Positions 1-35,018 of a stretch of DNA of 37,943 bases are shown piece by piece. The notes beneath the pieces were generated by a model, which saw only the letters and a list, made by a program, of their open reading frames with translations, was not told where the DNA came from and ran no database searches. Positions within the stretch are counted from its first letter, which is position 1; every line of letters starts with the position of its first letter. This DNA is from a virus, in IMG/VR virus record IMGVR_UViG_3300045975_000025, positions 1-37,943 of that record, one strand, 5' to 3'. The position numbers and the translations under genes were made by a program.

Positions 1-2
1 CG

Positions 3-890
3 ACCGAGACCTCGTGGCGGAAGTCCTACTGGACTCCCACCCCCCATGACGTGCCCGTCCTGGTAACCTACCACACGGCCTATCTGTTCCGGACCCCGAT
101 TCAGCGGCCCACGGTGCTGCGGGACTGGTCCAAGTTTGGGCGGCTGCTCGCGGGGCGGTGGCCTCGGAAGCTCCCGGCGTGGCAGAGCGTGAGCCCTGGG
201 ACCCTGCCCAAGCATGTGGCCTTCGACACGGAGTTTGACCCGCTGAATCGGCTGACCCGATACTCCATGGCGGATGTTCAACTCAACGGTTGGGTGATCG
301 AGGCGGAGGATCATACGCCCACAGCGGTGCTCAATGGGACCCGGATCATCGCCCAGAATGCTCCGGCTGACATCGGCCACTTCACCCGCCTGTTCGCCTT
401 GACCCACGAGGATGTCCAGAAGTACATGGTCATGGACGACATCATGTTGAAGCACGCGGTCTTGTACGCGGGCTACGCGCACGATCTTGATTTCCAGGGG
501 TCCTGGTACTCCGGGCTCAACCGCTGGAAGCACCTGGCATTCTCGGCCCCCAGGGATTATTCGGGGGGCGATGCCATCGGCACCATGGAGGTGGACCTGG
601 CGCTCAACCGGGAGTTCCAAGCCGACCCCCTCAGCTATAAGGTCTACTCCGAGTTCCTCCGCCCCCACGTCTGGACCATCGAGCGGGCCGTGCGGGTCGG
701 CATGGGGACCTACGCCAAGAACGTGGATCGGTTCTTGGACGAGTTGACCACCCAGGCCAAGGAGGCGACGCTCATGGCTGAGGCGGCGGTCGGGTTCCCG
801 ATCAACCTCGGCTCCCCTGGACGCTCGGGCCAGGTCGGGGTAGAGTTGTACGACGTGATGAAGCTCCCAACCAAGAGGGGGACCAAGTGA
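3..890 (+). CDS. UDG-like tail fused to PolA-type 3'-5' exonuclease (5' partial)
   Basis: The reading frame is already open at the left edge, so the gene starts outside the window. The first ~45 residues contain TYHTAYLFRTP and a downstream DW, matching the C-terminal motif (TYHPAxLLR) of family 4/5-type uracil-DNA glycosylases. A DnaQ-like exonuclease domain follows. Counting from the GTG at 51, Exo I is AFDTEFD (D59, E61), Exo II is NAPADIGHF (N103, D107) and Exo III is YSGGDAIGT (Y170, D174), so all five catalytic positions are present. The end (INLGSPGRSGQVGVELYDVMKLP) matches the segment that leads into the thumb of a family-A polymerase, but the frame stops there. UDG-exonuclease-polymerase fusions are known from SPO1-like phages. 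The polymerase half is at 1150-2208 in another frame. The exonuclease call is firm; the UDG call rests on one motif. Confidence 0.85.
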   Translation, partial: TETSWRKSYWTPTPHDVPVLVTYHTAYLFRTPIQRPTVLRDWSKFGRLLAGRWPRKLPAWQSVSPGTLPKHVAFDTEFDPLNRLTRYSMADVQLNGWVIEAEDHTPTAVLNGTRIIAQNAPADIGHFTRLFALTHEDVQKYMVMDDIMLKHAVLYAGYAHDLDFQGSWYSGLNRWKHLAFSAPRDYSGGDAIGTMEVDLALNREFQADPLSYKVYSEFLRPHVWTIERAVRVGMGTYAKNVDRFLDELTTQAKEATLMAEAAVGFPINLGSPGRSGQVGVELYDVMKLPTKRGTK

Positions 891-1147
891 CTCAGCAAGA
901 GCGAATCGTCTTTGACATCACCAACATGCTCGCGGCTCGCATCTTCGACAGCCCCAGCCATGGGCTCGTGCCCCGATTCCGGGAGGTCATGCGGGAGTAC
1001 CTGCTGACCGTGATCCCCGCCGACCGGCCCTTCGTGGCGGAGGAGGTCAAGGTGACCCCACCCCCGGTGGCTGAGGCTGCCAAGCAGTCCGACAAGCCGA
1101 CCGTCGCCAAGCTCCGGCTCAAGTTGGCGGAGGAGCAGGGCTCCTAG
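887..1147 (+). CDS. Small unknown protein between the two polymerase halves
   Basis: This 86-aa ORF begins at a GTG that overlaps the exonuclease stop (GTGA) and ends 2 nt before the TTG of the polymerase-domain gene, so all three are probably translationally coupled. The N-terminal half is predicted helical (MTQQERIVFDITNMLAARIF); the C-terminal half is rich in Pro, Ala, Lys and Glu and looks disordered. I do not recognise a family. It sits exactly where an intact family-A polymerase would have a short loop between exonuclease and thumb. It could be an inserted gene or a linker/accessory subunit that keeps the two halves together. The frame is also open upstream, so fusion by -1 frameshifting is possible but unproven. 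Confidence 0.65.
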   Translation: MTQQERIVFDITNMLAARIFDSPSHGLVPRFREVMREYLLTVIPADRPFVAEEVKVTPPPVAEAAKQSDKPTVAKLRLKLAEEQGS

Positions 1148-1149
1148 TC

Positions 1150-2208
1150 TTGCCCAAGTCCAAGGCAGCGGGGGTGTCCGAGGAGGAGATGTACGCCCTG
1201 ATCGAGAAGGGCTACGATCTCCCTCTCGTCCGCGCCCGGTTGCGGTACGCGGAAGCCCAGCAGTTGATGTCGCACTACCTGGAGAAGCTCAAGAAGCCGC
1301 GCATCTACCCGCAGATGCTCCCCACTCAGGTCTCGGGCCGCTGGTCCACCACGGACCCTCCGGTCGCCAACCTCGCCAAGAAGTACAAGGCGGGCGAGGG
1401 CGCGGTGATCATTCCCAACCGGGGGGAGAAGTGGCTGCTCTTTGACCTGGACGCCATCGAGGCCAAGATTCTCTCGGCGTTTTCCAGGGACGAGGAAGAC
1501 CTCGAAGCCTTCGCCAAGGACTACGATCTCCACACGCTGACCGCCATGAAGGCCCTCAACCTCCCGCTGCCCCCCACAAAGACCAAGGCCCTCAGCACCG
1601 CTGAGGATTGCGCGGCGTGGCGGGCCCAGGTGGCCTGGGCGGGACCCAAGGACCAGCGCAGGGACCTGTTCAAGACGGTCAGGTATAGCCTCCAGTACTC
1701 CTTCGCCAAGAATTTCCTGGACTCCTACAAGGGGGTCCTCCAGGCGAAGATCGAGTTCGACGACGCTACGGGGAAGCCCGTGTTCAGCCGGGACCAGTTG
1801 ATGGTCGCGGGCAAGGCGTTCATCTTCTCCAAGCGGTTTACCTGGGGGGTCTGGAAGCCCCGGACCTGGGCGGAGTGCATCGCCACGGGGCGGAGTCGGA
1901 CGGTCCTCGGGAGGCTGAGGCACCTATTCGGGGATGCCGAGAACAAGGCCAAGGAGGGGTTGAATCACCGGGTCCAGGGGACGGTTTCCGACATGATGAA
2001 CATCATGTTGCGGGACATCCTGGCTGCGTACCCCTCAGCCACGCTCAAGTGGAACGAGCACGACGGGGCAACCATTGGGTTCCCCCGCAACGTAGACCCC
2101 CTCAGCACCATCCAACCTATGATCGACCGGACGTGGGACATCGAGGGGGTGTCCATCCGGTCCACCTTCACACATGGGTGGGCGTACCACCCGGAGGAAC
2201 AGGCATGA
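1150..2208 (+). CDS. Family-A DNA polymerase, polymerase (thumb-palm-fingers) domain
   Basis: Catalyses template-directed DNA synthesis for phage replication. The 352-aa product starts inside the thumb and carries all three polymerase motifs: the TGRWSTTDPPVANL equivalent of TGRLSSxxPNLQN near residue 62; motif A LLFDLDAIEAKILSAF (D99, E104) followed by YDLHT; motif B RRDLFKTVRYSLQYS on the O-helix; QGTVSDMMN; and motif C NEHDGATIG. The residue matching E. coli PolI F762 is Tyr, as in T7 polymerase. Motif C reads HDG rather than HDE. The exonuclease is encoded separately upstream. The start is TTG with GGAGGAG at 1129-1135, a rather long spacing; a GTG at 1174 is an alternative. The stop overlaps the next ATG. 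Confidence 0.92.
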   Translation: MPKSKAAGVSEEEMYALIEKGYDLPLVRARLRYAEAQQLMSHYLEKLKKPRIYPQMLPTQVSGRWSTTDPPVANLAKKYKAGEGAVIIPNRGEKWLLFDLDAIEAKILSAFSRDEEDLEAFAKDYDLHTLTAMKALNLPLPPTKTKALSTAEDCAAWRAQVAWAGPKDQRRDLFKTVRYSLQYSFAKNFLDSYKGVLQAKIEFDDATGKPVFSRDQLMVAGKAFIFSKRFTWGVWKPRTWAECIATGRSRTVLGRLRHLFGDAENKAKEGLNHRVQGTVSDMMNIMLRDILAAYPSATLKWNEHDGATIGFPRNVDPLSTIQPMIDRTWDIEGVSIRSTFTHGWAYHPEEQA

Positions 2209-2723
2209 ATGTCTACGAATTGACGGTGTTGGCCTTCGGCTTCGCGGCCACGGTCCTCTCGCTCTGGGCCCTGATCGTCAGCTACGCGGCCCGAGCCATC
2301 GAGCCCGAGAATGGGGTGATCACGGTCGAGCGCCAGCTTACGGAGCAGCGGCTCCAGAAGGCCGAGCGCGAATTGTTCCGCCAGGGCCAGTACCCCGATC
2401 TGGGCCTTCGCGCCTGGTGCCGGGAGTGGCGGAGCAAGCTCCGGTCGCAGGTGTCTGGTCTGGAGTCGCGGGTGTACCGGCTGGAGCATCCGGTCGATGC
2501 TCCCACGCCCCCGTTCACCGCGGAGCCCCCGGCGCTCACCGCTCGTCCCCTGATCGGCTACGAGGATTGGGACAACCGGGACGCCCGCATCAACGCCCTG
2601 GAAGCTCGCTACCAGCGGCTCCTGGACCATCTCAAGCTGGCCGAGCAGGAGAAGCTGATCCCGGTGGTGGCTGAGCCCCAGTACGCTGCGGTCACGGTCC
2701 TGGCCAAGAAGCGCCGTGGCTAA
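2205..2723 (+). CDS. Membrane-anchored coiled-coil protein
   Basis: The ATG overlaps the polymerase stop (ATGA) with GGAGGA just upstream, which sets the start. The 172-aa product has a hydrophobic segment at about residues 4-27 (ELTVLAFGFAATVLSLWALI and on), then a long charged helical region with heptad character (VERQLTEQRLQKAERELFRQ), a Pro-rich patch (PVDAPTPPFTAEPPALTARP) and a second helical stretch (ARINALEARYQRLLDHLKLA). It should sit in the inner membrane with its C-terminus in the cytoplasm. Its location inside the replication operon suggests a membrane tether or scaffold, but that is inference. No family recognised. Confidence 0.75.
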   Translation: MNVYELTVLAFGFAATVLSLWALIVSYAARAIEPENGVITVERQLTEQRLQKAERELFRQGQYPDLGLRAWCREWRSKLRSQVSGLESRVYRLEHPVDAPTPPFTAEPPALTARPLIGYEDWDNRDARINALEARYQRLLDHLKLAEQEKLIPVVAEPQYAAVTVLAKKRRG

Positions 2724-2979
2724 AGCGCCGAAGCTGCTCACCCTGGTGGTGTTGCCCCCGGCTGACGAATGGCCGGAGGTAGCCAAGCTGGCAGCCCAGG
2801 GCCACAGGATTCTCAGTCTGGCTGAGGCGGAGTCCATTCCGCTCACCGAGATCGACGGATTCCTGGGCCCCCTCTGCTGGCGCTTGGGTGAGCAGCATCG
2901 GAAGTACCTCCCGGTAGCGGTCCAAGCGCTCCGGAGAATCAAGTACCCGCCCAAGAAGGGCGAGGCTGAGGTAGACTAG
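2716..2979 (+). CDS. Small unknown protein
   Basis: This 87-aa product starts at GTG and overlaps the end of the preceding gene by 8 nt. It opens with a beta-type segment (KLLTLVVLPPADEWPEVAKL), has helical middle and end parts, and finishes with a basic then acidic tail (RRIKYPPKKGEAEVD). No motif is recognised. Tight packing between the coiled-coil protein and the phosphoesterase supports it being a real gene of the replication operon. Confidence 0.6.
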   Translation: MAKAPKLLTLVVLPPADEWPEVAKLAAQGHRILSLAEAESIPLTEIDGFLGPLCWRLGEQHRKYLPVAVQALRRIKYPPKKGEAEVD

Positions 2980-2983
2980 AGCC

Positions 2984-3823
2984 ATGATCAAGACCTCTTT
3001 CGAGATTCCCCTAGCTGACGATCAAGACCTCCTGCTCATTCCCATCGGTGATGTCCACTACGACACGGACGAGTGCGACCGCGAGCGGGTCCATCGGCTG
3101 GTCGAGTGGGTCCTCAAGCAGGAGCAGAAGGGGCACCTGGTCCGGATGCTCGGCATCGGGGATTACCTGGACCTGGCGAGCCCCTCCAACCGCAAGCGGA
3201 TCATGGACATGTACGACACCACCCAGAAGTCCATTGATTCCATCGCGCTGATCGAGCTACAGCGGTTCGTCGAGGTCTTCTGGCCGATCCGGCATTGTTT
3301 CCTGGGGCTCCTGACCGGCCACCACACGCACGTCTTCACGAGTAGCAAGGCGGGCAAGGACTGGGCCGGGAAGACCTCGGATCAATGGCTTGCCCACGCC
3401 CTGGGCTGCAAGTCGTTCAGCGACAGCGACCGGATGGCGGTCCTGCTCGCCCGGATGAATTTCCCCCATGGAACCTATCTCGATGTCCTCGCGCTCCACG
3501 GTGGCGGAGGGGCTCAGACCCCTGGTGGCCGTGTGATGAAGCGCATCAAGTACGCCGAGATCGCCCCGACCGCGCACCTGGTCATCTCCGGCCACGACAA
3601 CGCCAAGATGGCGTATCCTCGGTCGGGTTTGGACTACGATCACGGGTCGATCAAGCGCTACGTCATTGGCTCGGGGTCCTTCCAGCGGGGTTACTTGGAG
3701 GGCCAGACCGGCTACGCCGAGGAGTGGGGGCTGGTGCCCGCCGACCTGGGCGTGGTTGTGGTCAAGATCAACGAGGAGCTTCGCAACGGGAAGTGGCGCA
3801 TCGACTACCATGCGTCGGTGTAG
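2984..3823 (+). CDS. Calcineurin-like metallophosphoesterase
   Basis: The 279-aa product carries the ordered metal-binding blocks of the calcineurin-like superfamily: GDVHYD (D23, H25), GIGDYLD (D60), TGHHTHV (position of the usual GNH[ED]; the Asn is His here), LHGGGG (H172) and SGHDN (the usual GHxH with the last His as Asp). Such enzymes hydrolyse phosphodiesters or phosphomonoesters; phage members near replication genes may act on nucleic acid ends or nucleotides. The changes in blocks 3 and 5 match a divergent phage subgroup rather than a dead enzyme, but substrate and activity are unknown. The start is ATG with a weak ribosome site (TAGAG). The 3' end overlaps the next gene by 14 nt. 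Confidence 0.85.
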   Translation: MIKTSFEIPLADDQDLLLIPIGDVHYDTDECDRERVHRLVEWVLKQEQKGHLVRMLGIGDYLDLASPSNRKRIMDMYDTTQKSIDSIALIELQRFVEVFWPIRHCFLGLLTGHHTHVFTSSKAGKDWAGKTSDQWLAHALGCKSFSDSDRMAVLLARMNFPHGTYLDVLALHGGGGAQTPGGRVMKRIKYAEIAPTAHLVISGHDNAKMAYPRSGLDYDHGSIKRYVIGSGSFQRGYLEGQTGYAEEWGLVPADLGVVVVKINEELRNGKWRIDYHASV

Positions 3824-4178
3824 GTGGTGCGGGGGGACCCTGGACCACTACTACAAGTGCCGGTTCTGCGGGAACCTGGGGCAGGCGATTCGCATGATGT
3901 CCCGGTACTGGTTCAACCGGATGATCCTGGGGATGGGAGCGACAGCGGCCTACGGGGTCCCAGTGGCGCAACGCCGAGCCTGCCACAACGCCAGCCAGAG
4001 GAAGTACTACCGCAAGCTCCTGGCCAAGGGGCTCACCCCACGGCAAGCCAAGGGGATCAACCCCGAGCGCCATCGAGCCTGGCAGCGGGCGTATGAAGCC
4101 AAGTGGGGTGGGCGGCTGGGACTCGGCACCCAAGCGTGGATCAACCGAGAGATTGCAAGGGGGGTAAGTATCCAATGA
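3810..4178 (+). CDS. Zinc-ribbon protein with basic C-terminus
   Basis: The 122-aa product begins with a compact zinc ribbon, CRWC-x9-CRFC (C4, C7, C17, C20). The rest is rich in Arg, Lys and Tyr (ASQRKYYRKLLAKGLTPRQA), consistent with a small nucleic-acid-binding protein. I chose the ATG at 3810, which overlaps the phosphoesterase end, because it puts the zinc ribbon at the N-terminus; the frame is open further upstream but only inside the phosphoesterase. It could bind DNA or RNA in the replication complex; no specific family is recognised. Confidence 0.75.
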   Translation: MRRCRWCGGTLDHYYKCRFCGNLGQAIRMMSRYWFNRMILGMGATAAYGVPVAQRRACHNASQRKYYRKLLAKGLTPRQAKGINPERHRAWQRAYEAKWGGRLGLGTQAWINREIARGVSIQ

Positions 4179-4351
4179 TGGCTACGGCACCACCGAGTAA
4201 GAGAGCACTGTCGCCGATTGAGACCCGTCTGCTCTACAACCTGCTGTCCCGGCTCCTGAACGAGATGCCCCTGACGGCGGCGGCCTTCGTCCCGCTGACT
4301 GAGACCCGGAAACACGTCGCGGTGATGGTCGCGGATGACGAGGTACGCTAG
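4175..4351 (+). CDS. Small unknown protein (58 aa)
   Basis: The start ATG overlaps the zinc-ribbon stop (ATGA), with a G-rich AAGGGGGG ribosome site a few bases upstream. A second ATG lies immediately after in frame. The product is a short helical protein (SPIETRLLYNLLSRLLNEMP is its core) with an acidic end. No family recognised. Support comes from ribosome site, overlap and tight packing. Confidence 0.55.
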   Translation: MMATAPPSKRALSPIETRLLYNLLSRLLNEMPLTAAAFVPLTETRKHVAVMVADDEVR

Positions 4352-4352
4352 G

Positions 4353-4685
4353 GTGAGCGAGCATAAGCTCTCCAAGAAGCCTGCCGTTCCCCAGTGGCGG
4401 AGTCTCCCAGATGTCCGCCGCAACGTCTACGACGCCCTGGCCCAGCTTCACGAGGTTTCCAAGCAGGTGGTCAAGGACTGCCCCAAGGATTTCGACGAGT
4501 TTGTCCAGTTTGCTCTCGTCAAGGGCATCCAGACCATCGACTCCTGGCTCAGCCAGAAGCTCGACACGCTGATCGCCGAGGAGAAGGCCAAATCTCCCAC
4601 CATCGAGATCGTCCAGCCGGGCGAGTTGAAGGCCGCGCTCCAAGAGGGCGACCTGGGCGAGATCATCAAGAGGCTCAAAGCATGA
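4353..4685 (+). CDS. Small helical unknown protein
   Basis: The product is about 110 aa and strongly helical: DVRRNVYDALAQLHEVSKQV, then a second region ending KSPTIEIVQPGELKAALQEG. I prefer the GTG at 4353, since GAGG at 4340-4343 lies 9 nt upstream; an in-frame ATG at 4335 would add six residues but has no clear ribosome site. The stop overlaps the ATG of the kinase gene (ATGA). Function unknown. Confidence 0.6.
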   Translation: MSEHKLSKKPAVPQWRSLPDVRRNVYDALAQLHEVSKQVVKDCPKDFDEFVQFALVKGIQTIDSWLSQKLDTLIAEEKAKSPTIEIVQPGELKAALQEGDLGEIIKRLKA

Positions 4686-5284
4686 GGATCATTGGGATCG
4701 CGGGCCGCATCGGGTCGGGCAAGGACATCATCGCGGACTATCTGGTCAAGCACCACGGGTTCGAGATTCTCCGCTTCTCTGGGCTCCTCAAGGACGAGGT
4801 GATCGCCCGGCTGCCCCGGACTCTGCTACAGATCGCGCACGCCAACGGAATCTTCTGCAAGCAGACCGAGACCCCGGCTGAGTTTCTCCACCGGCTGGTC
4901 TACGAGATCAAGCCGCCTGGCGTCCGGGAGCTTCTCCAGGAGTACGGCACCGAGGTCCGCCGCCAGGATGACCCGGCCTACTGGGTCAAGGAGTGGCTGA
5001 GGAAGGTCGAGAAGCTCACCATGCTCGACCCCAAGATGCCGCTGGTGTGCCCGGACACCCGATTCCCCAACGAGGCGCGGGCCATCAAGAACACCGGGGG
5101 CCTGGTGATCCGGGTCAACCGGCCTTCCCAGGGCCCCATGGCTCCTGACGCCCACGAGTCCGAGACCGCGCTCCTGGACTACCCCTACGACGCGGTGTTC
5201 ACCAATCCGGACATCCCCTTGTGGAAGGAAAACCTGGAGCGGAACGTGGCGGAGTGGGTCCTCAAGTGGTTCCACGTCCGGTGA
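4682..5284 (+). CDS. Deoxynucleoside monophosphate kinase (P-loop)
   Basis: The 200-aa product opens with a Walker A loop, GIAGRIGSGKD (K14), followed by helices, and contains PDTRFPNEARAIKN and VNRP-type segments characteristic of phage dNMP kinases of the T4 gp1/dephospho-CoA-kinase-like group. It would phosphorylate dNMPs, feeding dNTPs to the polymerase encoded upstream; it acts in the cytoplasm. The ATG at 4682 overlaps the previous stop and starts directly before the P-loop. It is the last gene before a 114-nt gap and ends the replication-type cluster apart from one small ORF. Confidence is high for a P-loop nucleotide kinase, moderate for the exact substrate. Confidence 0.82.
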   Translation: MRIIGIAGRIGSGKDIIADYLVKHHGFEILRFSGLLKDEVIARLPRTLLQIAHANGIFCKQTETPAEFLHRLVYEIKPPGVRELLQEYGTEVRRQDDPAYWVKEWLRKVEKLTMLDPKMPLVCPDTRFPNEARAIKNTGGLVIRVNRPSQGPMAPDAHESETALLDYPYDAVFTNPDIPLWKENLERNVAEWVLKWFHVR

Positions 5285-5398
5285 TGGTGGTCCCGAGCGA
5301 CCCCAAAGCTGCTGGCTGAGATTTCCGTCCGACTACAGGCGGGACACTCGTGCTCGATCTCGTCGATCATGGGGTGGCCCTCCAGAGGACTCTATTAT

Positions 5399-5602
5399 AT
5401 GCCGCCCTCTGACAACGAAGCCCTGATGATCTTCATGGCCAAGATCGCCAACAAGATCAACAGGTTACTTCACAAGGACCTCGGGAAGGTCACCGACGAT
5501 GAATTCAAGATTCACGCGATGGGGGTCACCATCTGCCTGATGGTTCAGTCGGAGCTATCGCTCCAGGGGGAAGATACGGTCTTCGTGGAGTCGAATAACT
5601 AA
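5399..5602 (+). CDS. Small unknown protein (67 aa)
   Basis: The ATG at 5399 has AGAGGA at 5384-5389, nine bases upstream, and is preferred over an in-frame ATG at 5369 that lacks a ribosome site. The product is mostly helical (ALMIFMAKIANKINRLLHKD). It ends one base before the stop of the convergent lysis genes. The 114 nt before it (5285-5398) contain no other feature I can see. No family recognised. Confidence 0.55.
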   Translation: MPPSDNEALMIFMAKIANKINRLLHKDLGKVTDDEFKIHAMGVTICLMVQSELSLQGEDTVFVESNN

Positions 5603-5603
5603 G

Positions 5604-5918
5604 TTAGTCCCGCACCGTGGCTGAGGCCCGCAGCTTCGTCTGGCAGGCTTCCTCGGTGCCCCCCAGGGCCAGGCAGGCGCTCTTGGCGTAGATCACCATG
5701 GCCTGCCAGTCGGCCTCCAGGACCACCACGCAGGGGACCTCCACGATGTCCCCGCGCTTGCACATGCCCTTAAGCGGGGCCTCCGTCAGCACGGGAAGGG
5801 TCCGGAGGAACGGGTCGGAAGTCTCCGAGACCACCGGCCCCGTCGCGCACCCGAACAGCAGCAGCAGCACCGGGATCGCGGCCAGCACTCGCAGCAAAAG
5901 CAAGAGCGGCGGACTCAA
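5604..5918 (-). CDS. Putative outer-membrane spanin lipoprotein (Rz1-like)
   Basis: This frame encodes a hydrophobic leader followed by a lipobox, PVLLLLFGCATG, typical of a signal-peptidase-II lipoprotein. The mature part has four further cysteines (MCKRG, VPCVV, SACLA, EEACQ). It lies mostly within, and in a different frame from, the preceding gene, which is the classic arrangement of Rz/Rz1 spanin pairs. As an o-spanin it would sit in the outer membrane and act in the last step of lysis. The start is uncertain: TTG at 5918 gives a 23-residue leader; a GTG at 5888 is also possible. It is longer than most Rz1 proteins and not Pro-rich, so a generic phage lipoprotein is the alternative. Confidence 0.6.
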   Translation of the reverse strand: MSPPLLLLLRVLAAIPVLLLLFGCATGPVVSETSDPFLRTLPVLTEAPLKGMCKRGDIVEVPCVVVLEADWQAMVIYAKSACLALGGTEEACQTKLRASATVRD

Positions 5919-6060
5919 GCTGGAGGCTCTCGATGAGGAGGCGCTGGCGCTCGCCCCGCTTGATCTCTGAGCGGACAAGCCACTCCTTGATGACTCCCAG
6001 GGCGAATTGGACCGCCGCTTCGCCCAGGTACTTGAGCGCCAGCCCAGCAAGGAGTTGCAC
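5770..6060 (-). CDS. Putative inner spanin-like / lysis-associated protein
   Basis: The 96-aa product starts at GTG immediately after the holin-candidate stop (TAGGTG), so it is probably translated by coupling. The N-terminus is amphipathic to hydrophobic (VQFALGVIKEWLVRSE), followed by a charged helix (IKRGERQRLLIESLQLESAA). The C-terminal 40 residues are low-complexity Gly/Ala/Pro/Asp and overlap the lipoprotein gene in another frame, so they may not be under strong selection. Position between holin candidate and lipoprotein suggests an Rz-like i-spanin, but a clear transmembrane segment is lacking. Confidence 0.5.
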   Translation of the reverse strand: MQLLAGLALKYLGEAAVQFALGVIKEWLVRSEIKRGERQRLLIESLQLESAALAFAASAGRDPGAAAAVRVRDGAGGLGDFRPVPPDPSRADGGPA

Positions 6061-6225
6061 CTACTTCTTCGGGTTGACGATGTTGGCGAGCGCCGTGACC
6101 ACGGTCACCGCCACGAGCGCCACGGTGGGGTGGCCCGCCAGGTACGCGCTGATCTGCCCCGAGAACTGCTCGATCACGAGCGCCAGCACCGGAATCAGGG
6201 TCGGCCAGAGCATCTTCCAATTCAT
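6061..6225 (-). CDS. Putative holin (54 aa, two TM segments)
   Basis: A short gene with an excellent ribosome site, AGGAGGA at 6234-6240, eight bases before the ATG. The product has two hydrophobic segments, MLWPTLIPVLALVI and TVALVAVTVVTALANIV, joined by a short turn (SGQISAYLAGHP), and ends with a basic tail (NPKK). Small size, two TM helices and position next to spanin-like genes fit a class II holin, which would form membrane lesions at lysis. The next gene begins directly after its stop. Confidence 0.65.
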   Translation of the reverse strand: MNWKMLWPTLIPVLALVIEQFSGQISAYLAGHPTVALVAVTVVTALANIVNPKK

Positions 6226-6250
6226 GGTTTGGTTCCTCCTGGGAAAGAGT

Positions 6251-6547
6251 TTACCGCGTGTGGGCAGGCGCGTAAAGAGGTTGTGGCCCGCCCCAGTAGG
6301 ACGGATCGAAGCAGCGGGTGGGGTCCCGCTTGGCCAGGTCTTGAAGCGCCTGGCAGTTGAGGTAGTCGATCCGGGCGCGCTGGATCGTGTATTCGTGGTG
6401 CTGGGCGAGCGCGCGGGTGACCGGACTCGGAAGCCAGCCCATGAAGGCGGCTGTAATGATGAGGGTCATCAGAAGACACACACCCGCCGCCCCTCCCCGC
6501 TGGAGGAGATTGCTCAACGCATTGAGCAGCGCGGTGGCGGAGTCCAT
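6251..6547 (-). CDS. Single-TM membrane protein of the lysis region
   Basis: The 98-aa product has an amphipathic N-terminus, one TM segment at about residues 19-41 (AGVCLLMTLIITAAFMGWLP), then a charged helix and a Pro/aromatic-rich tail with two cysteines. It lies between the large ejection protein and the holin candidate. It could be an antiholin, an N-terminally anchored i-spanin or a virion membrane protein; the data do not decide. The ATG has AGGG upstream. Confidence 0.6.
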   Translation of the reverse strand: MDSATALLNALSNLLQRGGAAGVCLLMTLIITAAFMGWLPSPVTRALAQHHEYTIQRARIDYLNCQALQDLAKRDPTRCFDPSYWGGPQPLYAPAHTR

Positions 6548-6555
6548 GACGGGCC

Positions 6556-9537
6556 CTATTGTACCTTGGGCCGGAGCAGATTCGCACGAGTCTCGTTGTA
6601 CTGCTTGAACGCCTCCGCCAGGTCCGGGTACTTACGGAGCATCGCGTCCTTGGCCCGAGCCTCGGCCTCGCGGATCGCCCCCAGCAGCATCCGCGCACGA
6701 CCCCCACGGGGCCCCGGCTGCTCGCGCTCGTAGATGGTCTTGTGGAGCGGATCGGTGACCATCCAATCAAGATGCTCCTTGAGCGTCTTCCCCGAGGTCG
6801 GGAACGGGATGGAATTCATCAGCTTCACGAGATCGCGGCGCTGGTGCGTGTCCATCTCCACGCCCCCGGCACTCCGGGTCCCCACAAACCACTCGTCCGG
6901 GTACTCCGGGCTGGCATCGTTGTCCACGAGAGCCTGGACGCCCGCCGAGGGCTTGATCGTCAGGTGCTTCGTGGGGAGCAGCGCATCCGCGACGCCCAAC
7001 TCCGCCTCGATGTCCTCGCCGCCGATGAGGCGAACGCGGGCCGGAAGGGTCATGGAACACCCCCAGGTCTTCTTGCAGGCTTGCTGGAGAACCCCGCGAG
7101 CTTCCCGCACCGTGTTGTCCACCAGCGCGGTGTTGGTCTGGTTGATGAAGTTGGGGACGAAGCTGGAGACCCAGCGGTCGAACATGTTGCCCCCAAACTT
7201 GTCAGGCTCCGAGATCGCCCGCGACATCTGCATCACCCCGGACATGAACGCGGGGTTCGTGATGTTCTTGGCGATGGCAGAGGCCGCGATGGAGACCGCC
7301 TCCTCGTAGCGAGCGAGTTCCGTGGCTGAGTGGCTGGAACGCCGGAGCACTTCGAGGTCCGCCGCCAAGCCCGCGACCTGGCCAAACACACCCAGCCGGG
7401 AAAACTGGATGTCCTGGTTGCCCACGCGCACGGAGTTGGGGAGCCCAACGTTGTGCTCAGCCTGAAACTGGACCTTCCGGTAGTCCTTTTCCCCGCCCCG
7501 GATCAGGTTGGCCGCCGCCATGCTGGTGAGCCCCGCCATCATAAACGACCCGAAGGCCGCCTTGGACAGTGCCTGCTCCCTGGCCATCCGCTGCGTGAGC
7601 GAGGCCCCCGGAGCCGCGCCCTCTTGGAGAATCTTCGCCTGCTCCGACATGACCTTCCGCAGCCCCGGCGCGTTGGCCAGGAATTCCACGGGCGTGTACT
7701 GGAGCGTCATCTTGGCGATGTTGACCGGGGTCCGGACGAAGGGCATGACGAAGGTGATGCCGGGCTGCTCCTCCCGCCAGTGGAGGAACGCCTGGCCACC
7801 CTTGCCGAGTTCCTTCTGGAGGGTTTTCTCGAACGAGTAGTCCAGCGCCCACTTGTGGACATCCGGGTAATCGGTGGCGTTGGTCGAGAATTCCCGGAAC
7901 AGGTCCTTGCGGCGCTTCGAGAACGCGGCTCCCTTGAGTCCCTCCGCCTCCGCCTGCTCCAGCGCCTTGCGGTAGGCGTACTGGTTGACGCCCATCCGGT
8001 AGAAGACCATCTTGAACGCCGCGTCCTCGGACATGAGCGCACGGGTCGGCATCCGGACAATCGCCTCGGCGGCGAAGTCCACGAAGCGACCAGCCAGGGA
8101 ATCCGGGGACACCCCAAGATTGGCCGCCGAAATCCCCTTCACCGGGAGGTCCACCTTCCCGGACATCCCGCCCTTGTTCATGCGCGACTGCTCCACGAAG
8201 CTCTGGCCCTGGGCCTTCTGAGCGAGGGTCGTGGAGACCTTGAGCGGGTCCATGGTCATGTCGCGGGTGAACGCATCCTGGCCAGACTTCATGGCGTTGA
8301 AGAACATCTCCGTGAAGTCCCCCCAGCCCTGAACGTAGCCCTTCATCAGCGCAGCGGATTCCCCGAGCCGGGTGCCTGAGCCGGGGATCAGCCCATAGAT
8401 CAGGGACTCCAGGGGAGCCGTGGTAGCCCGGATCGCGTTGTCCGCCATGTTGGCCACATGGGTCGAAGGAGCCGAGAGGATCGCGTTGATCCAGTACTCC
8501 TGGAGCATGTCGAGCCTGGTGACCCCCTGGCCGATGGCCCGCGCAAACTTCGCGGTCTTCACCGGGTCGTCCAGGGCCAGGAACATCTCCAGAAGCTCAC
8601 GGGGAGTGACCTTCCCAGGGGCTTGGGTCATCAACTCCCGGAGCATCTTCGCCTGAAGATTGATCGTGGCTGAGGGGTCATTCAGAATCCCCAGGCTCCG
8701 CCCGGACTCCGCCACAACCCCGAGCTTCTTGACCTCCGTGAGGCTGAGCAACTGAAGCTGCTTGAGGAACTCCTCGAACGGGGCATAGTTGCCCTGCTCC
8801 AGGCCAGTGAGCGCCGCGCGCGCAAGATTCGTGCCACGCTGGTGCGCCTGCTGCTGGAAGTGGATCAGCGTCGCAGAGGCCAGGTCGTCCATCGTGGTCC
8901 CAGCCGGGATTTCCCTGACCATATCCGGGTTGACACCCTTCGCCAACTCCTCAGCCTCGGCGTGGATCGGGTCGCGGGGACGGAACCCCCGACGCTGGGC
9001 CTCGATGTTGCCCTCAGAGAGGATCGTCTTCACCTCGTCCATGGTCATGGCGGTCTCGGCCTTCGCCAGGCCCTCCAGGCCAGGAGCGACGGTTCCCTTC
9101 GCCGCCTTGGCTGAGGCCCGACCCAGGAGGTCCTTGATCAGTGCCTTGATCCCCTTGTCCGCCACGCCCGCCAGCATGAACTCCACCGCCGCCTCCTCGG
9201 GGGCAGGCTGCTCCAGGATCGCCTGGGTGGTGTCCAGTTGGCCCTCCTGCGAGGGCATCGGCGTGGGCTCGGGGGCCCCAGGGGTCAGAGGCTGGGTCTG
9301 GCCCTCGGTCTGCTCGGCGGTGACCTCGGGACCAGGCAGAGGGTTCCCGAACTCATCGACCTGCTCCTGGTCCTCGGGGGCAGGCGGAGGACCCGCGACC
9401 GGCCCCTGGTCCTGGATCGGGGGCGGAGTGGACTCCAGCACCGGGTCGGCAGGGATTCCCCCGGTCTCACCGGCAGGCTCCGGCGTGTAGCTGATGGACA
9501 GTGACATCGGGACCGGCTGAACCGACTCGTCCGCCAT
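6556..9537 (-). CDS. Large internal virion (ejection) protein
   Basis: A 993-aa product, the longest in the window. The first ~110 residues are Pro/Glu/Gln-rich and probably disordered; the rest is largely helical. It contains WINAILSAPSTHVANMADNA near residue 340, a motif I associate with large injected/internal phage proteins (W[VI]NAxLSxPxTHxxN). Gene order (tail tubular B, gp13-like, gp14-like, then large proteins) places it where T7 has gp15/gp16, so it probably forms part of the core ejected into the host envelope. I see no lysozyme or transglycosylase active site. The start ATG follows AGAAAGG. It is followed at once by the lysis-region membrane genes. Confidence 0.75.
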   Translation of the reverse strand: MADESVQPVPMSLSISYTPEPAGETGGIPADPVLESTPPPIQDQGPVAGPPPAPEDQEQVDEFGNPLPGPEVTAEQTEGQTQPLTPGAPEPTPMPSQEGQLDTTQAILEQPAPEEAAVEFMLAGVADKGIKALIKDLLGRASAKAAKGTVAPGLEGLAKAETAMTMDEVKTILSEGNIEAQRRGFRPRDPIHAEAEELAKGVNPDMVREIPAGTTMDDLASATLIHFQQQAHQRGTNLARAALTGLEQGNYAPFEEFLKQLQLLSLTEVKKLGVVAESGRSLGILNDPSATINLQAKMLRELMTQAPGKVTPRELLEMFLALDDPVKTAKFARAIGQGVTRLDMLQEYWINAILSAPSTHVANMADNAIRATTAPLESLIYGLIPGSGTRLGESAALMKGYVQGWGDFTEMFFNAMKSGQDAFTRDMTMDPLKVSTTLAQKAQGQSFVEQSRMNKGGMSGKVDLPVKGISAANLGVSPDSLAGRFVDFAAEAIVRMPTRALMSEDAAFKMVFYRMGVNQYAYRKALEQAEAEGLKGAAFSKRRKDLFREFSTNATDYPDVHKWALDYSFEKTLQKELGKGGQAFLHWREEQPGITFVMPFVRTPVNIAKMTLQYTPVEFLANAPGLRKVMSEQAKILQEGAAPGASLTQRMAREQALSKAAFGSFMMAGLTSMAAANLIRGGEKDYRKVQFQAEHNVGLPNSVRVGNQDIQFSRLGVFGQVAGLAADLEVLRRSSHSATELARYEEAVSIAASAIAKNITNPAFMSGVMQMSRAISEPDKFGGNMFDRWVSSFVPNFINQTNTALVDNTVREARGVLQQACKKTWGCSMTLPARVRLIGGEDIEAELGVADALLPTKHLTIKPSAGVQALVDNDASPEYPDEWFVGTRSAGGVEMDTHQRRDLVKLMNSIPFPTSGKTLKEHLDWMVTDPLHKTIYEREQPGPRGGRARMLLGAIREAEARAKDAMLRKYPDLAEAFKQYNETRANLLRPKVQ

Positions 9538-29232: not shown

Positions 29233-29930
29233 CTTCGAGAGGGGGCCAGGTCAATGAAAACGGGCACTTAGCGCTTGGCACGGGTCTGGCAGGAGCAAGG
29301 GCCGTCGCAAGCGGGGCACCGGGCCAGTAGGGGGCCGGACGCGGCGACAGGCACCGGGCGGACGTGATGCCCGGACAGGGGGCCCGAGGTTAGGTAGCCC
29401 CCGCAAGAGTAGGCGGACCAAACGCCTGTAGCGGCCAGAGGGCCACGGGCCAATGGGGGCCGAGGGTAGCGGGGCAGACGCCGAAACGGCTAGGGCGGCC
29501 AACCCCGGCAAGTTAGCGAAATGCCAAGTGGTAAACCCGCGAGTAGGGGTCTTGCGTAGACTCGAAACCCCCGAAACACGGTACTCGGGCATGGATGCTA
29601 GCGGGTCTGACGTGGCAAGGGTTGCACCCTTGACCCACAAAGTACACGTTGACAAGCCTTTAGGGCCCGGAACACGCCTAAGCTTGGCAAAGCCTAGCGC
29701 CATGCGTCTCTGGCACGCTGGGAAAGGTAGGCTAGCCAATGGGGGCCGATACTTAGCCCCTAGCGAGGGTAGGAACAGCGACGGTAGCCCGGTGGGAACG
29801 TCAACGGGCGGCAAAGTTTCCCGACACTTACGCGGGGCAAGCAAGCCCCGTGCCACATGGCCAAACGACGGGCGCAAACACTGGCCCGCTACCGCGCCAT
29901 GGCATGGGGCTTGCAAGCCTTACGCGAGCG
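29154..29930. other. Long gene-free region with many short hairpins
   Basis: About 780 bases contain no ORF with a credible ribosome site or protein-like composition. Instead there are many local inverted repeats: CCGGGC/GCCCGG near 29348-29371, CAAGGGT-TGC-ACCCTTG near 29617, GCGGGGC/GCCCCGT near 29832, GGCTTGCAAGCC near 29909, and the element GCCAATGGGGGCCGA twice (near 29450 and 29735). Frequent GAAA and short unpaired A-rich spacers between G/C stems look like a folded RNA. A large non-coding RNA, an origin, or a packaging region are all possible; I match none of the known large RNAs. Confidence 0.45.
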
Positions 29931-29985
29931 GAGGGGTGCGGGCGCAAGCCCGCATTAACGCGCACTCAGGGGTCCCAAGCCCCCT
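29931..29985 (+). promoter_or_regulatory. Two-hairpin RNA motif, copy A
   Basis: GAGGGG (29931) is followed by a stem TGCGGGC/GCCCGCA with a GCAA loop, a TTAACGCGCACTC linker and a second stem AGGGG/CCCCT with loop TCCCAAGC (29973-29980). The ATG of the 48-aa gene is 28 nt downstream, after AGGAGGG. See finding on the five-copy family. Confidence 0.7.
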
Positions 29986-30160: not shown

Positions 30161-30170
30161 ATACCACGCG

Positions 30171-30230
30171 GAGGGGTGCGGGGACTGAACACCCCCGCAT
30201 TAACGCGGCTAGCTGGTCCCAAGCCCAGCT
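30171..30230 (+). promoter_or_regulatory. Two-hairpin RNA motif, copy B
   Basis: Shares GCGGAGGGGTGCGGG with copy A. First stem TGCGGGG/CCCCGCA, linker TTAACGCGGCT, second stem AGCTGG/CCAGCT with loop TCCCAAGC (30217-30224). A further ATGGGT/ACCCAT hairpin follows before the ATG of the 99-aa gene at 30272. Confidence 0.7.
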
Positions 30231-30271: not shown

Positions 30272-30571
30272 ATGGACGCGATGAACACCACGCAGGAGAC
30301 TCAGGAGATTCCCGAGAAGACTCAGGCCGAGTTGGACGCGCTCAAGCTCTGCCCGGAAGCCCAGGCGGCCGCCCGTCTCGTGGGCGCGTGGATTTGGGCC
30401 GAGTTTCCGAGCAAGCCCAGCCCGGATACGCTCACGTTCCTGAAGGCGCGCGGCTATCGGTTCAACCCTAAGCGCAAGGTCTGGCAGAATGCCTGCGGGG
30501 TGTTCACGCGCCGTGCGCCCTATGACCCCCGCGAGAAGTACGGGGTGCTCAAGGTCGAGTCGCTGGGCTAG
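30272..30571 (+). CDS. Small unknown protein (99 aa)
   Basis: The product contains FLKARGYRFNPKRKVWQNAC, a pattern (L-x-x-x-G[FY]R[FW]-x-P-x-[KR]KxW) found in small domains of mobile-element proteins that resize or accompany DNA-processing enzymes; its role is unknown. The N-terminus is Thr/Glu-rich and probably flexible. AGGAG lies nine bases upstream. It lies between motif copies B and C. Confidence 0.6.
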   Translation: MDAMNTTQETQEIPEKTQAELDALKLCPEAQAAARLVGAWIWAEFPSKPSPDTLTFLKARGYRFNPKRKVWQNACGVFTRRAPYDPREKYGVLKVESLG

Positions 30572-30573
30572 CT

Positions 30574-30632
30574 GAGGGGTCAGGGGGCCCGAGCCCCCTG
30601 ATTAAAGCGCAGCCACGGTCCCAAGCCCGTGG
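30574..30632 (+). promoter_or_regulatory. Two-hairpin RNA motif, copy C
   Basis: GAGGGG (30574), first stem TCAGGGGGC/GCCCCCTGA with loop CCGA, linker TTAAAGCGCAG, second stem CCACGG/CCGTGG with loop TCCCAAGC (30619-30626). The ribosome site GGAGGAGGAG starts right at the end of the second stem and the ATG of the 59-aa gene follows at 30646, so folding could affect access to the ribosome site. Confidence 0.75.
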
Positions 30633-31675: not shown

Positions 31676-31876
31676 ATGGCCGTTCCGTCTGGCATCATCA
31701 CCAAACAGGTCGGAGAGAAGGTCTACGTGCTCGTGGGCTTGAAGGACAAGGAGGCCCCGCGCGACGACGCCTATGGTGAGCCATTCTGGCTCCGATGGGA
31801 CACGGTGGAGACCCCGATGGGTGAGACCGTGCCCGAGGGCAAGCGGGTGAGCGCGGCAGTCAATCTGCCCCTCTAG
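31676..31876 (+). CDS. Small unknown protein (66 aa)
   Basis: The product (MAVPSGIITKQVGEKVYVLV and on) is beta-type with alternating hydrophobic residues and no cysteines. GTGAGGA precedes the ATG. It is followed directly by motif copy D. No family recognised. Confidence 0.55.
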   Translation: MAVPSGIITKQVGEKVYVLVGLKDKEAPRDDAYGEPFWLRWDTVETPMGETVPEGKRVSAAVNLPL

Positions 31877-31878
31877 GT

Positions 31879-31933
31879 GAGGGCAAGGGGCCCGCGCCCC
31901 TTGTAAACCGCATGTGGGGTCCCAAGCCCCCAC
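31879..31933 (+). promoter_or_regulatory. Two-hairpin RNA motif, copy D
   Basis: GAGGG (31879), first stem CAAGGGGC/GCCCCTTG with loop CCGC, linker TAAACCGCAT, second stem GTGGGG/CCCCAC with loop TCCCAAGC (31920-31927). The ATG of the 583-aa gene is nine bases after the second stem and has no clear ribosome site, so the motif may be needed for or block initiation. Confidence 0.75.
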
Positions 31934-33694: not shown

Positions 33695-34441
33695 ATGGGA
33701 AACGGGAATCATCATCCGAGCGCCCGTGAGGCCCGGTGTTCCGGGCACAGCGCGGCCATCAAGGTGTTCAACAGCCCGGTGAAGGTCTTTGCCGGGGGCT
33801 TCACGCCGAGAACGCCGATTCCAATCGGCGCGACGGTGCTGGACCTCCATGGGGGGTTGCACAGCCCAATCACGGGGCACCCCATGCTGGAGTCGCAGGT
33901 CATCAAGATCAACTGGCCCGACATGAGCATCCCGGCCATCGACCGTGACGGCTGGCTGAGGGTCGCACGGGTGCTCTCCAACCTTCGGCGGCCTTTGTTC
34001 GTCGGCTGCGGCGCGGGCCACGGTCGCACGGGCACGGCCCTCGTCATCATCGGGTGCCTGCTCGGCCAGATTCCCAAGAAGGCCGACCCGGTGGTCTGGA
34101 TCAGGGATCACTACTGCGAGAACGCGGTGGAGACCACGAGCCAGATCAAGTACATCGAAGCCATCACGCTCAGGTCGAGCGCGGCCAAGCCGAGCCACGG
34201 GAGCGGCAACTGGTCGAGCCAGACCTCGTGGGAGCGACGGGACGAGCCCAAGTGGGAGGAGCCCCGTGGGGGAGCCCGGTCGAGCGGCCCCTATGGCGGG
34301 GGCACGGTCAACTACCCCGCGACGCAGCCCAAGCCCAACTTCGACCGGATGTTCCCCAAGGGTGAGGAGCGGCGCGCGACGCCCGTGGAACACCTCAACG
34401 ACCCGGAGTTGAATCCCAACTCCACGCTGAACCGCCTCTAG
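33695..34441 (+). CDS. Protein tyrosine phosphatase-like enzyme
   Basis: The 248-aa product has the cysteine phosphatase P-loop CGAGHGRTGT (C105, R111) and an upstream WPD loop, NWPDMSIP (D76), the right order and spacing for a tyrosine/dual-specificity phosphatase. The residue before the Cys is Gly rather than the usual His, as in some phage relatives. DPVVWIRDHYCENAVET after the P-loop is also seen in phage members as I recall them. The C-terminal ~80 residues are Gly/Ser/Pro-rich and probably disordered. It could remove phosphate from host or phage proteins. GAGGAAGG precedes the ATG, which directly follows the stop of the 583-aa gene. Confidence 0.8.
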   Translation: MGNGNHHPSAREARCSGHSAAIKVFNSPVKVFAGGFTPRTPIPIGATVLDLHGGLHSPITGHPMLESQVIKINWPDMSIPAIDRDGWLRVARVLSNLRRPLFVGCGAGHGRTGTALVIIGCLLGQIPKKADPVVWIRDHYCENAVETTSQIKYIEAITLRSSAAKPSHGSGNWSSQTSWERRDEPKWEEPRGGARSSGPYGGGTVNYPATQPKPNFDRMFPKGEERRATPVEHLNDPELNPNSTLNRL

Positions 34442-34456: not shown

Positions 34457-34954
34457 ATGGCAGATGTCAAGGTTCTTCCTTCCCTTCGGAAGGATAGCAA
34501 GGCGGTCTATTTCCCGTGCCAGATCAGGAAGACCGGGAGTGCCCAAGCCCGGCTCCAGGTCAGCTACGGGTCGGGCAAGCACTTCACGGAGGAGACGTTC
34601 GTCGTGAGCGAGGAGTTGGCGGAGTACCTCGGCCAGCTTCCCATGCCCCACAACTCGCTGGCCGGGACCGGGACCAAGTACGCCAGCGCGCGAGTCACGG
34701 TGCATCCCGACAAGGACAACGGCGGGAAGAACCACCCCATCCGGCTCCAGATCGAGGGGCCCAAGATCAATCGGGACTGGGGGGTCGAGTTCCTGCTCGA
34801 CTCCTACGAGGTCCACTCCGCCATCGGCGGGCTGATTGCCCAGATGACGGTGCCTCCGCCCACGGAGGAGGAGAACCCGCTCCTGGGCAAGCACGACGTT
34901 CCCTCGTACAAGTCCACCAAGAAGGTCGAGGAGGAGGAGGCGGACGAAGCCTAG
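34457..34954 (+). CDS. Unknown protein with acidic C-terminal tail
   Basis: The 165-aa product is beta-rich (ARLQVSYGSGKHFTEETFVV, KNHPIRLQIEGPKINRDWGV) and ends in an acidic tail, KKVEEEEADEA. A beta core with acidic C-terminus is the plan of phage single-stranded-DNA-binding proteins, but no SSB family motif is visible, so this is a weak suggestion. GGAGGGG lies upstream of the ATG. It follows the phosphatase gene and precedes motif copy E. Confidence 0.6.
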   Translation: MADVKVLPSLRKDSKAVYFPCQIRKTGSAQARLQVSYGSGKHFTEETFVVSEELAEYLGQLPMPHNSLAGTGTKYASARVTVHPDKDNGGKNHPIRLQIEGPKINRDWGVEFLLDSYEVHSAIGGLIAQMTVPPPTEEENPLLGKHDVPSYKSTKKVEEEEADEA

Positions 34955-34956
34955 CA

Positions 34957-35018
34957 GAGGGGGGCGGGGGGAGTGAACCCCGCCCTAATGCGGCAGCCGG
35001 GGTCCCAAGCCCCCTGGC
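34957..35018 (+). promoter_or_regulatory. Two-hairpin RNA motif, copy E
   Basis: GAGGGG (34957), first stem GGGCGGGG/CCCCGCCC with an 8-nt loop, linker TAATGCGGCAG, second stem GCCGGGG/CCCCTGGC (one bulge or G-U) with loop TCCCAAGC (35003-35010). The lipoprotein ATG is at 35033 after AGGAGAAGG. Confidence 0.7.

Follow-up and report, generated by a model that had tools for sequence, protein, structure and literature searches.

The window analysed here is a linear contig of viral DNA with 37,943 bases, the first 2.2 kb of which encode a family-A DNA polymerase that is split between two genes with a small open reading frame (ORF) between them. The locus is ordinary in its parts and unusual in its form, and the split is real and inherited, being shared by a group of uncultured bacterial viruses. 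Very probably, an ancestral gene for a uracil-DNA-glycosylase (UDG) domain, an exonuclease, and a polymerase was cut once, yielding a two-gene phage polymerase whose chains would reassemble and whose gap ORFs are passenger genes.

Arrangement of the locus

Three forward ORFs occupy the three reading frames, and both frame steps are -1. The exonuclease chain ORF (plus strand, as are all features of the locus) extends from position 3, which is only the contig edge, to the TGA at 888-890. It encodes the end of the UDG domain, a DEDDy 3'-5' exonuclease, and, as far as INLGSPGRSGQVGVELYDVMKLPTKRGTK, the first half of the thumb. At the first junction (882-893), a four base pair stop/start overlap, GTGA, leads into ORF86 (887-1147), a gap ORF of 86 amino acids (aa) whose GTG start overlaps the exonuclease TGA and which ends with a TAG; a weak ribosome-binding-like GAGGGG is situated just upstream. 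The second junction (1131-1152) reads AGGAGCAGGGCTCCTAG-TC-TTG. Here, the TAG of ORF86 (1145-1147) is followed after two bases by the TTG start codon, at 1150, of the polymerase chain, which has 352 aa (1150-2208) and comprises the second half of the thumb, the palm, and the fingers, with the motifs A (FDLDAIEAKI), B (RRDLFKTVRYSLQYS), and C (EHDG). These coordinates confirm the earlier note, which had described an 86-aa ORF in the third frame with GTGA and TAG-N2-TTG junctions. Base pairing of the AGGAG with GCTCCT is possible at the second junction and would be compatible with translational coupling.

The coding potential was quantified with a codon-bias profile trained on the long genes of this phage. 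One frame at a time appeared to be coding, with clean switches from the exonuclease frame to that of ORF86 at 887 and to the polymerase frame near 1148. The value for ORF86 was 0.63 bits per codon, compared to a median of 0.65 for real genes and a 99th percentile of 0.57 for off-frame sequences. Because of this profile, all three ORFs are regarded as coding sequences, and ORF86 looks like a coding sequence and not like a chance ORF.

A second IMG/VR contig (G001, IMGVR_UViG_3300045884_000044, 31,891 bp) has a single mismatch to positions 1-24971 of the window, at 14207, and is 100% identical over 1-7205, including both junctions. This contig perhaps comes from the same site as the window, so that it is not fully independent. 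The doubt about the assembly is removed by comparative evidence, because the same break is found in relatives (see below), and an assembly error as the cause of the break is excluded for practical purposes. Recoding of TAG was also considered as an explanation for the ORF ends and was rejected, as TAG is the commonest stop codon (34 of 69) and no tRNA gene was found.

The exonuclease chain and the UDG domain

The exonuclease ORF matched phrog_17 with an E value of 2.8e-7. The ORF of the window had no Pfam match, while PF01612 scored above the cut-off in two relatives, L065 and L061. The exonuclease motifs (D-T-E, N...D, and YxxxD) are present and conserved, and the DEDDy residues D229, E231, D283, Y339, and D343 (numbering of the first row) do not vary across six rows, one of which is the window. 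The exonuclease gene runs upstream of the window edge to window position -156 or further (read in G001/L001). G001 reaches 6,920 bases past this edge, and there the ORF leads into an N-terminal UDG domain. The UDG fragment of this phage is 46.8% identical to the fused polymerase of MW202742. The PF03167 scores are 40.8, 55.6, and 34.6 bits for L024, L065, and L061, respectively (cut-off 24.3), and 19.2 bits, which is below the cut-off, for the fragment of this phage.

An in-frame TAG (L001 3689-3691, equivalent to window -163 to -161) disrupts the UDG domain of this phage, and a TTG follows one codon further on. The TAG is located between cysteines three and four of a probable Fe-S cluster, and none of the relatives has a stop codon at this position. 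It may represent a second split, a nonsense mutation, or a sequencing error.

The polymerase chain and the position of the break

The polymerase ORF matched PF00476 with 59.6 bits (gathering cut-off 34.3, E value 3.5e-16) and phrog_17 with an E value of 1.6e-22; the polymerase chains of L030, L024, and L065 also exceeded the PF00476 gathering score. These matches support the assignment of the exonuclease and polymerase ORFs to one family-A polymerase that had been made from the sequence alone. The catalytic residues D99 of motif A, R171 and K175 of motif B, and H304-D305 of motif C are present in the window. Across 11 rows, D99, H304, and D305 are invariant and K175 is nearly so. Catalytic residues are therefore intact on both sides of the break, as had been claimed.

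The second chain has a start of its own. The N-termini of the polymerase chains of relatives (MPGRRK, MPFKRK, MPKPKR, and MPRSHAK) share the motif MP-x-K/R, and in most polymerase chains MP and basic residues are followed by a short stretch rich in S, D, and E ahead of the first helix. The TTG-initiated LPKSKAAGVSEEEM (LPKSK) of the window aligns with this conserved start. The exact start is uncertain in L022 and L027; for the latter, position 1594 was chosen, and 1570 and 1522 are possible.

In all seven split lineages, the break corresponds to residues 597-603 (about 598) of E. coli PolA. It had been placed between exonuclease and thumb; the split of this gene stands, but the break falls within the thumb itself, at the tip. 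The AlphaFold model of a fused relative, L061, had a mean pLDDT of 84.6 and a pTM of 0.84, and its best structural matches were the phage G20c Pol I (E 4e-26) and the Klenow fragment (E 4e-24). Segments of three or more residues with values under 50 were confined to residues 441-483 of this model, i.e. to the break site between the two flanking helices. A cut at the thumb tip leaves both active sites untouched. In the Klenow fragment, the thumb tip contacts the DNA and influences processivity. In the AlphaFold model of the lone polymerase chain, the thumb was badly placed (residues 42-84 under 50, rmsd about 12 Å), and this thumb is the basis for no claim.

Seven lineages share the break

Searches of IMG/VR with single proteins returned the same phage or nothing. 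The family came to light with a degenerate DNA pattern that encodes GRWSTTxPP, together with two alignment-based searches. Screening of 84,980 prokaryote genomes yielded one distant match only. A split at the same place, for which the earlier note had advised looking in related phages, is present in six further IMG/VR lineages, namely L024 (grouped with L036, which is identical over 9,775 bases), L022, L027 (grouped with L038), L030, L049, and L065. They are about 34-44% identical to the window. In the closest outgroups, L061, L062, L063, L064, and MW202742, the gene is a single ORF of about 815-870 aa without interruption.

The joined chains were placed in a maximum-likelihood tree, in which a branch with a support of 100/99 had the seven split rows on one side. 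When the columns around the break were omitted, the support for the split clade was 100/100. One split event would be enough for all seven lineages. A stable two-subunit polymerase, one of the readings offered in the earlier note, is supported by the occurrence of the same break in seven lineages of one clade.

The contents of the junction differ between these lineages. In L024 and L049, the junction is TGATG without any gap, and in L065 the two genes overlap by 38 nt. The gap has a length of 135 nt in L022 (where a 52-aa ORF extends into both genes), 223 nt in L027 (68-aa ORF), 259 nt in the window (86-aa ORF), and 865 nt in L030 (ORFs of 71, 73, and 151 aa). The gap ORFs are mutually unrelated, and three of the seven lineages have none. 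ORF86 is carried by no relative, and no convincing homologue was found in phages, IMG/VR (same contig only), PDB, Pfam, or PHROGs. Because the row nearest to the window, L065 (44% identity), is without a gap ORF, the acquisition of ORF86 most likely postdates the split. The proposal of a recent gene insertion holds for ORF86, but not as the cause of the split. Most likely, ORF86 is a passenger gene. Downstream of the polymerase gene, small genes of the window (2716-2979) and of L022 (3127-3474) are similar by eye, which suggests a shared gene order.

A model for the two-gene polymerase and its alternatives

We propose that the ancestral single UDG-exonuclease-polymerase gene received a single cut, situated in the disordered loop of the thumb tip, and that all seven known descendants have kept this cut. 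Chain 1 comprises the UDG domain and the 3'-5' exonuclease together with the first thumb helices, and chain 2 the second thumb helices, the palm, and the fingers. A single message would give rise to both chains, through stop/start overlap or re-initiation. They would reassemble via the thumb and the contact between exonuclease and polymerase, and this predicted co-assembly should result in an active, Klenow-like enzyme. Because the junction seems to tolerate extra DNA, small unrelated genes have probably been inserted repeatedly, and ORF86 would be one such gene.

A more far-reaching version, which we regard as unlikely, is that an obligate two-chain polymerase, with a thumb composed of both chains, serves replication in an entire phage lineage. 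Its open thumb tip would admit separate small proteins, among them the product of ORF86, as exchangeable accessory subunits, and the UDG domain of this phage would likewise be divided. Somewhat less probable still is that ORF86 encodes a third subunit, a processivity factor or linker at the thumb, and that the gap genes of the relatives have the same role. Small ORFs recur at the break site, and their location at the thumb tip is near the site where the thumb of T7 polymerase bears its thioredoxin-binding insertion. However, no similarity exists among the gap ORFs, a membrane-like peptide is part of one set, and three relatives lack a gap ORF altogether. The linker protein suggested in the earlier note is not supported, as the gap ORFs are mutually unrelated and absent from three of the seven lineages.

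It also appears very unlikely that the polymerase gene is a decaying pseudogene in this phage and that a host polymerase or another polymerase is used instead. The gene has two lesions, namely the break and the TAG that disrupts the UDG domain. The TAG runs counter to the two-gene reading, as it could indicate gene decay here, though not in the relatives. In contrast, seven lineages keep the break, their catalytic residues are conserved across 34-44% identity, and the codon bias is intact on either side of the break. No second DNA polymerase was found among the phage genes scanned, so that this part of the genome offers no replacement from the phage side.

Programmed -1 frameshifting at both junctions, which would yield a single fused polymerase whose thumb contains 86 inserted aa, is highly improbable, although it had been named as one possible reading. 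Both steps are indeed -1, the upstream frames are open (for about 35 codons ahead of ORF86 and about 25 codons ahead of the polymerase ORF), and an AGGGGGA precedes the first junction. However, inspection revealed a canonical slippery heptamer at neither junction, and overlapping starts account for the -1 steps. In addition, the 223-nt and 865-nt gaps of L027 and L030 hold several stop codons in every frame, so that a fusion would need several shifts there, and the conserved start of the polymerase chain likewise argues against frameshifting.

Scarcely credible is the assumption that the 271 bp from 888 to 1158 are a small self-splicing intron whose removal restores a single frame. Excision of this segment between two copies of CCAAG would join ...KRGTK to SKAAG... 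in frame, and other phage polymerase genes are interrupted by introns, a possibility that was raised by the authors of a study on OM43 phages (PMC10580990). However, no Rfam match, including group I and group II introns, was obtained at E<=5 over 600-1500, the predicted folding was no better than that of shuffled sequences (z -1.24), and the segment has an ordinary coding bias. Moreover, chain 2 has its own conserved start, and three relatives are split alike without intervening DNA, which makes splicing impossible where the genes overlap. A split intein was rejected because intein-sized N- or C-terminal segments are absent and the chains abut or overlap in L024, L049, and L065.

Comparison with known polymerases

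Family-A polymerases are normally single chains. The Klenow fragment and the Bst, Taq, and G20c Pol I enzymes share the fold and the motifs with the two chains described here, but they are single chains without a UDG domain. A phage PolA that contains UDG has been described for PaBG (PMC7412058). The nearest intact relatives, MW202742 and L061-L064, have the same domains in the same order as the window, but in one ORF. In the phage MIJ3, the replicase is also encoded in two genes; however, it is a family-B polymerase and is rejoined by a split intein (PMC6892783).

In the open-access literature, a split family-A polymerase was found for MEP401 alone, and a split at the thumb tip is reported nowhere there. 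The Methylophilales (OM43) phages MEP401 and MEP402 (Zobellviridae) have a family-A polymerase in two genes together with a small ORF (PMC10580990). This type of split is reported for most of the authors' group I genomes, and they suspected an intron (PMC10580990). The break in MEP401 is at about residue 699 of E. coli PolA, in the palm ahead of motif A, whereas that of the window is at about 598 in the thumb. Furthermore, no UDG domain was reported for MEP401 and MEP402, and the small ORFs are unrelated to that of the window.

In MW202554 (ctLwi270, Manatee Spring), the UDG-exonuclease and polymerase genes are separate and a third-frame ORF is situated between them, as in the window. However, its break is at about residue 522, at the exonuclease-polymerase boundary, and its polymerase is only distantly similar. 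The gap ORF of MW202554.1 (L017, 2878-3138) has no good start codon of its own and, by eye, an apparent NrdR-type zinc ribbon at its end.

As the sites at about 598, 699, and 522 differ, the splits are separate events. Phage family-A polymerases have at least three different break sites, in the thumb, in the palm, and at the exonuclease-polymerase boundary, and 'interrupted' polymerase genes should not be waved off as introns or errors. A cut in the DNA-contacting thumb that has been kept since before the members of the clade diverged to about 35-45% identity would imply that PolA, naturally divided into two parts, is functional in vivo. The clade offers ready-made pairs for tests of how processivity depends on the thumb and for split-polymerase tools.

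Other features of the window

The protein encoded at 33695-34441 has Pfam matches of the phosphatase type (Y_phosphatase at 22.7 bits, with a cut-off of 20.9) and also matches phrog_17568, which is labelled thymidylate synthase, so that the labels disagree. Five type-P5 twister ribozymes were found on the plus strand, at 29928-29984, 30167-30228, 30571-30630, 31876-31931, and 34953-35014, with scores of 51-57 bits compared to a gathering score of 37.6. They are located in and around a block of plus-strand genes at 29-35 kb, and five are many copies for one phage genome.
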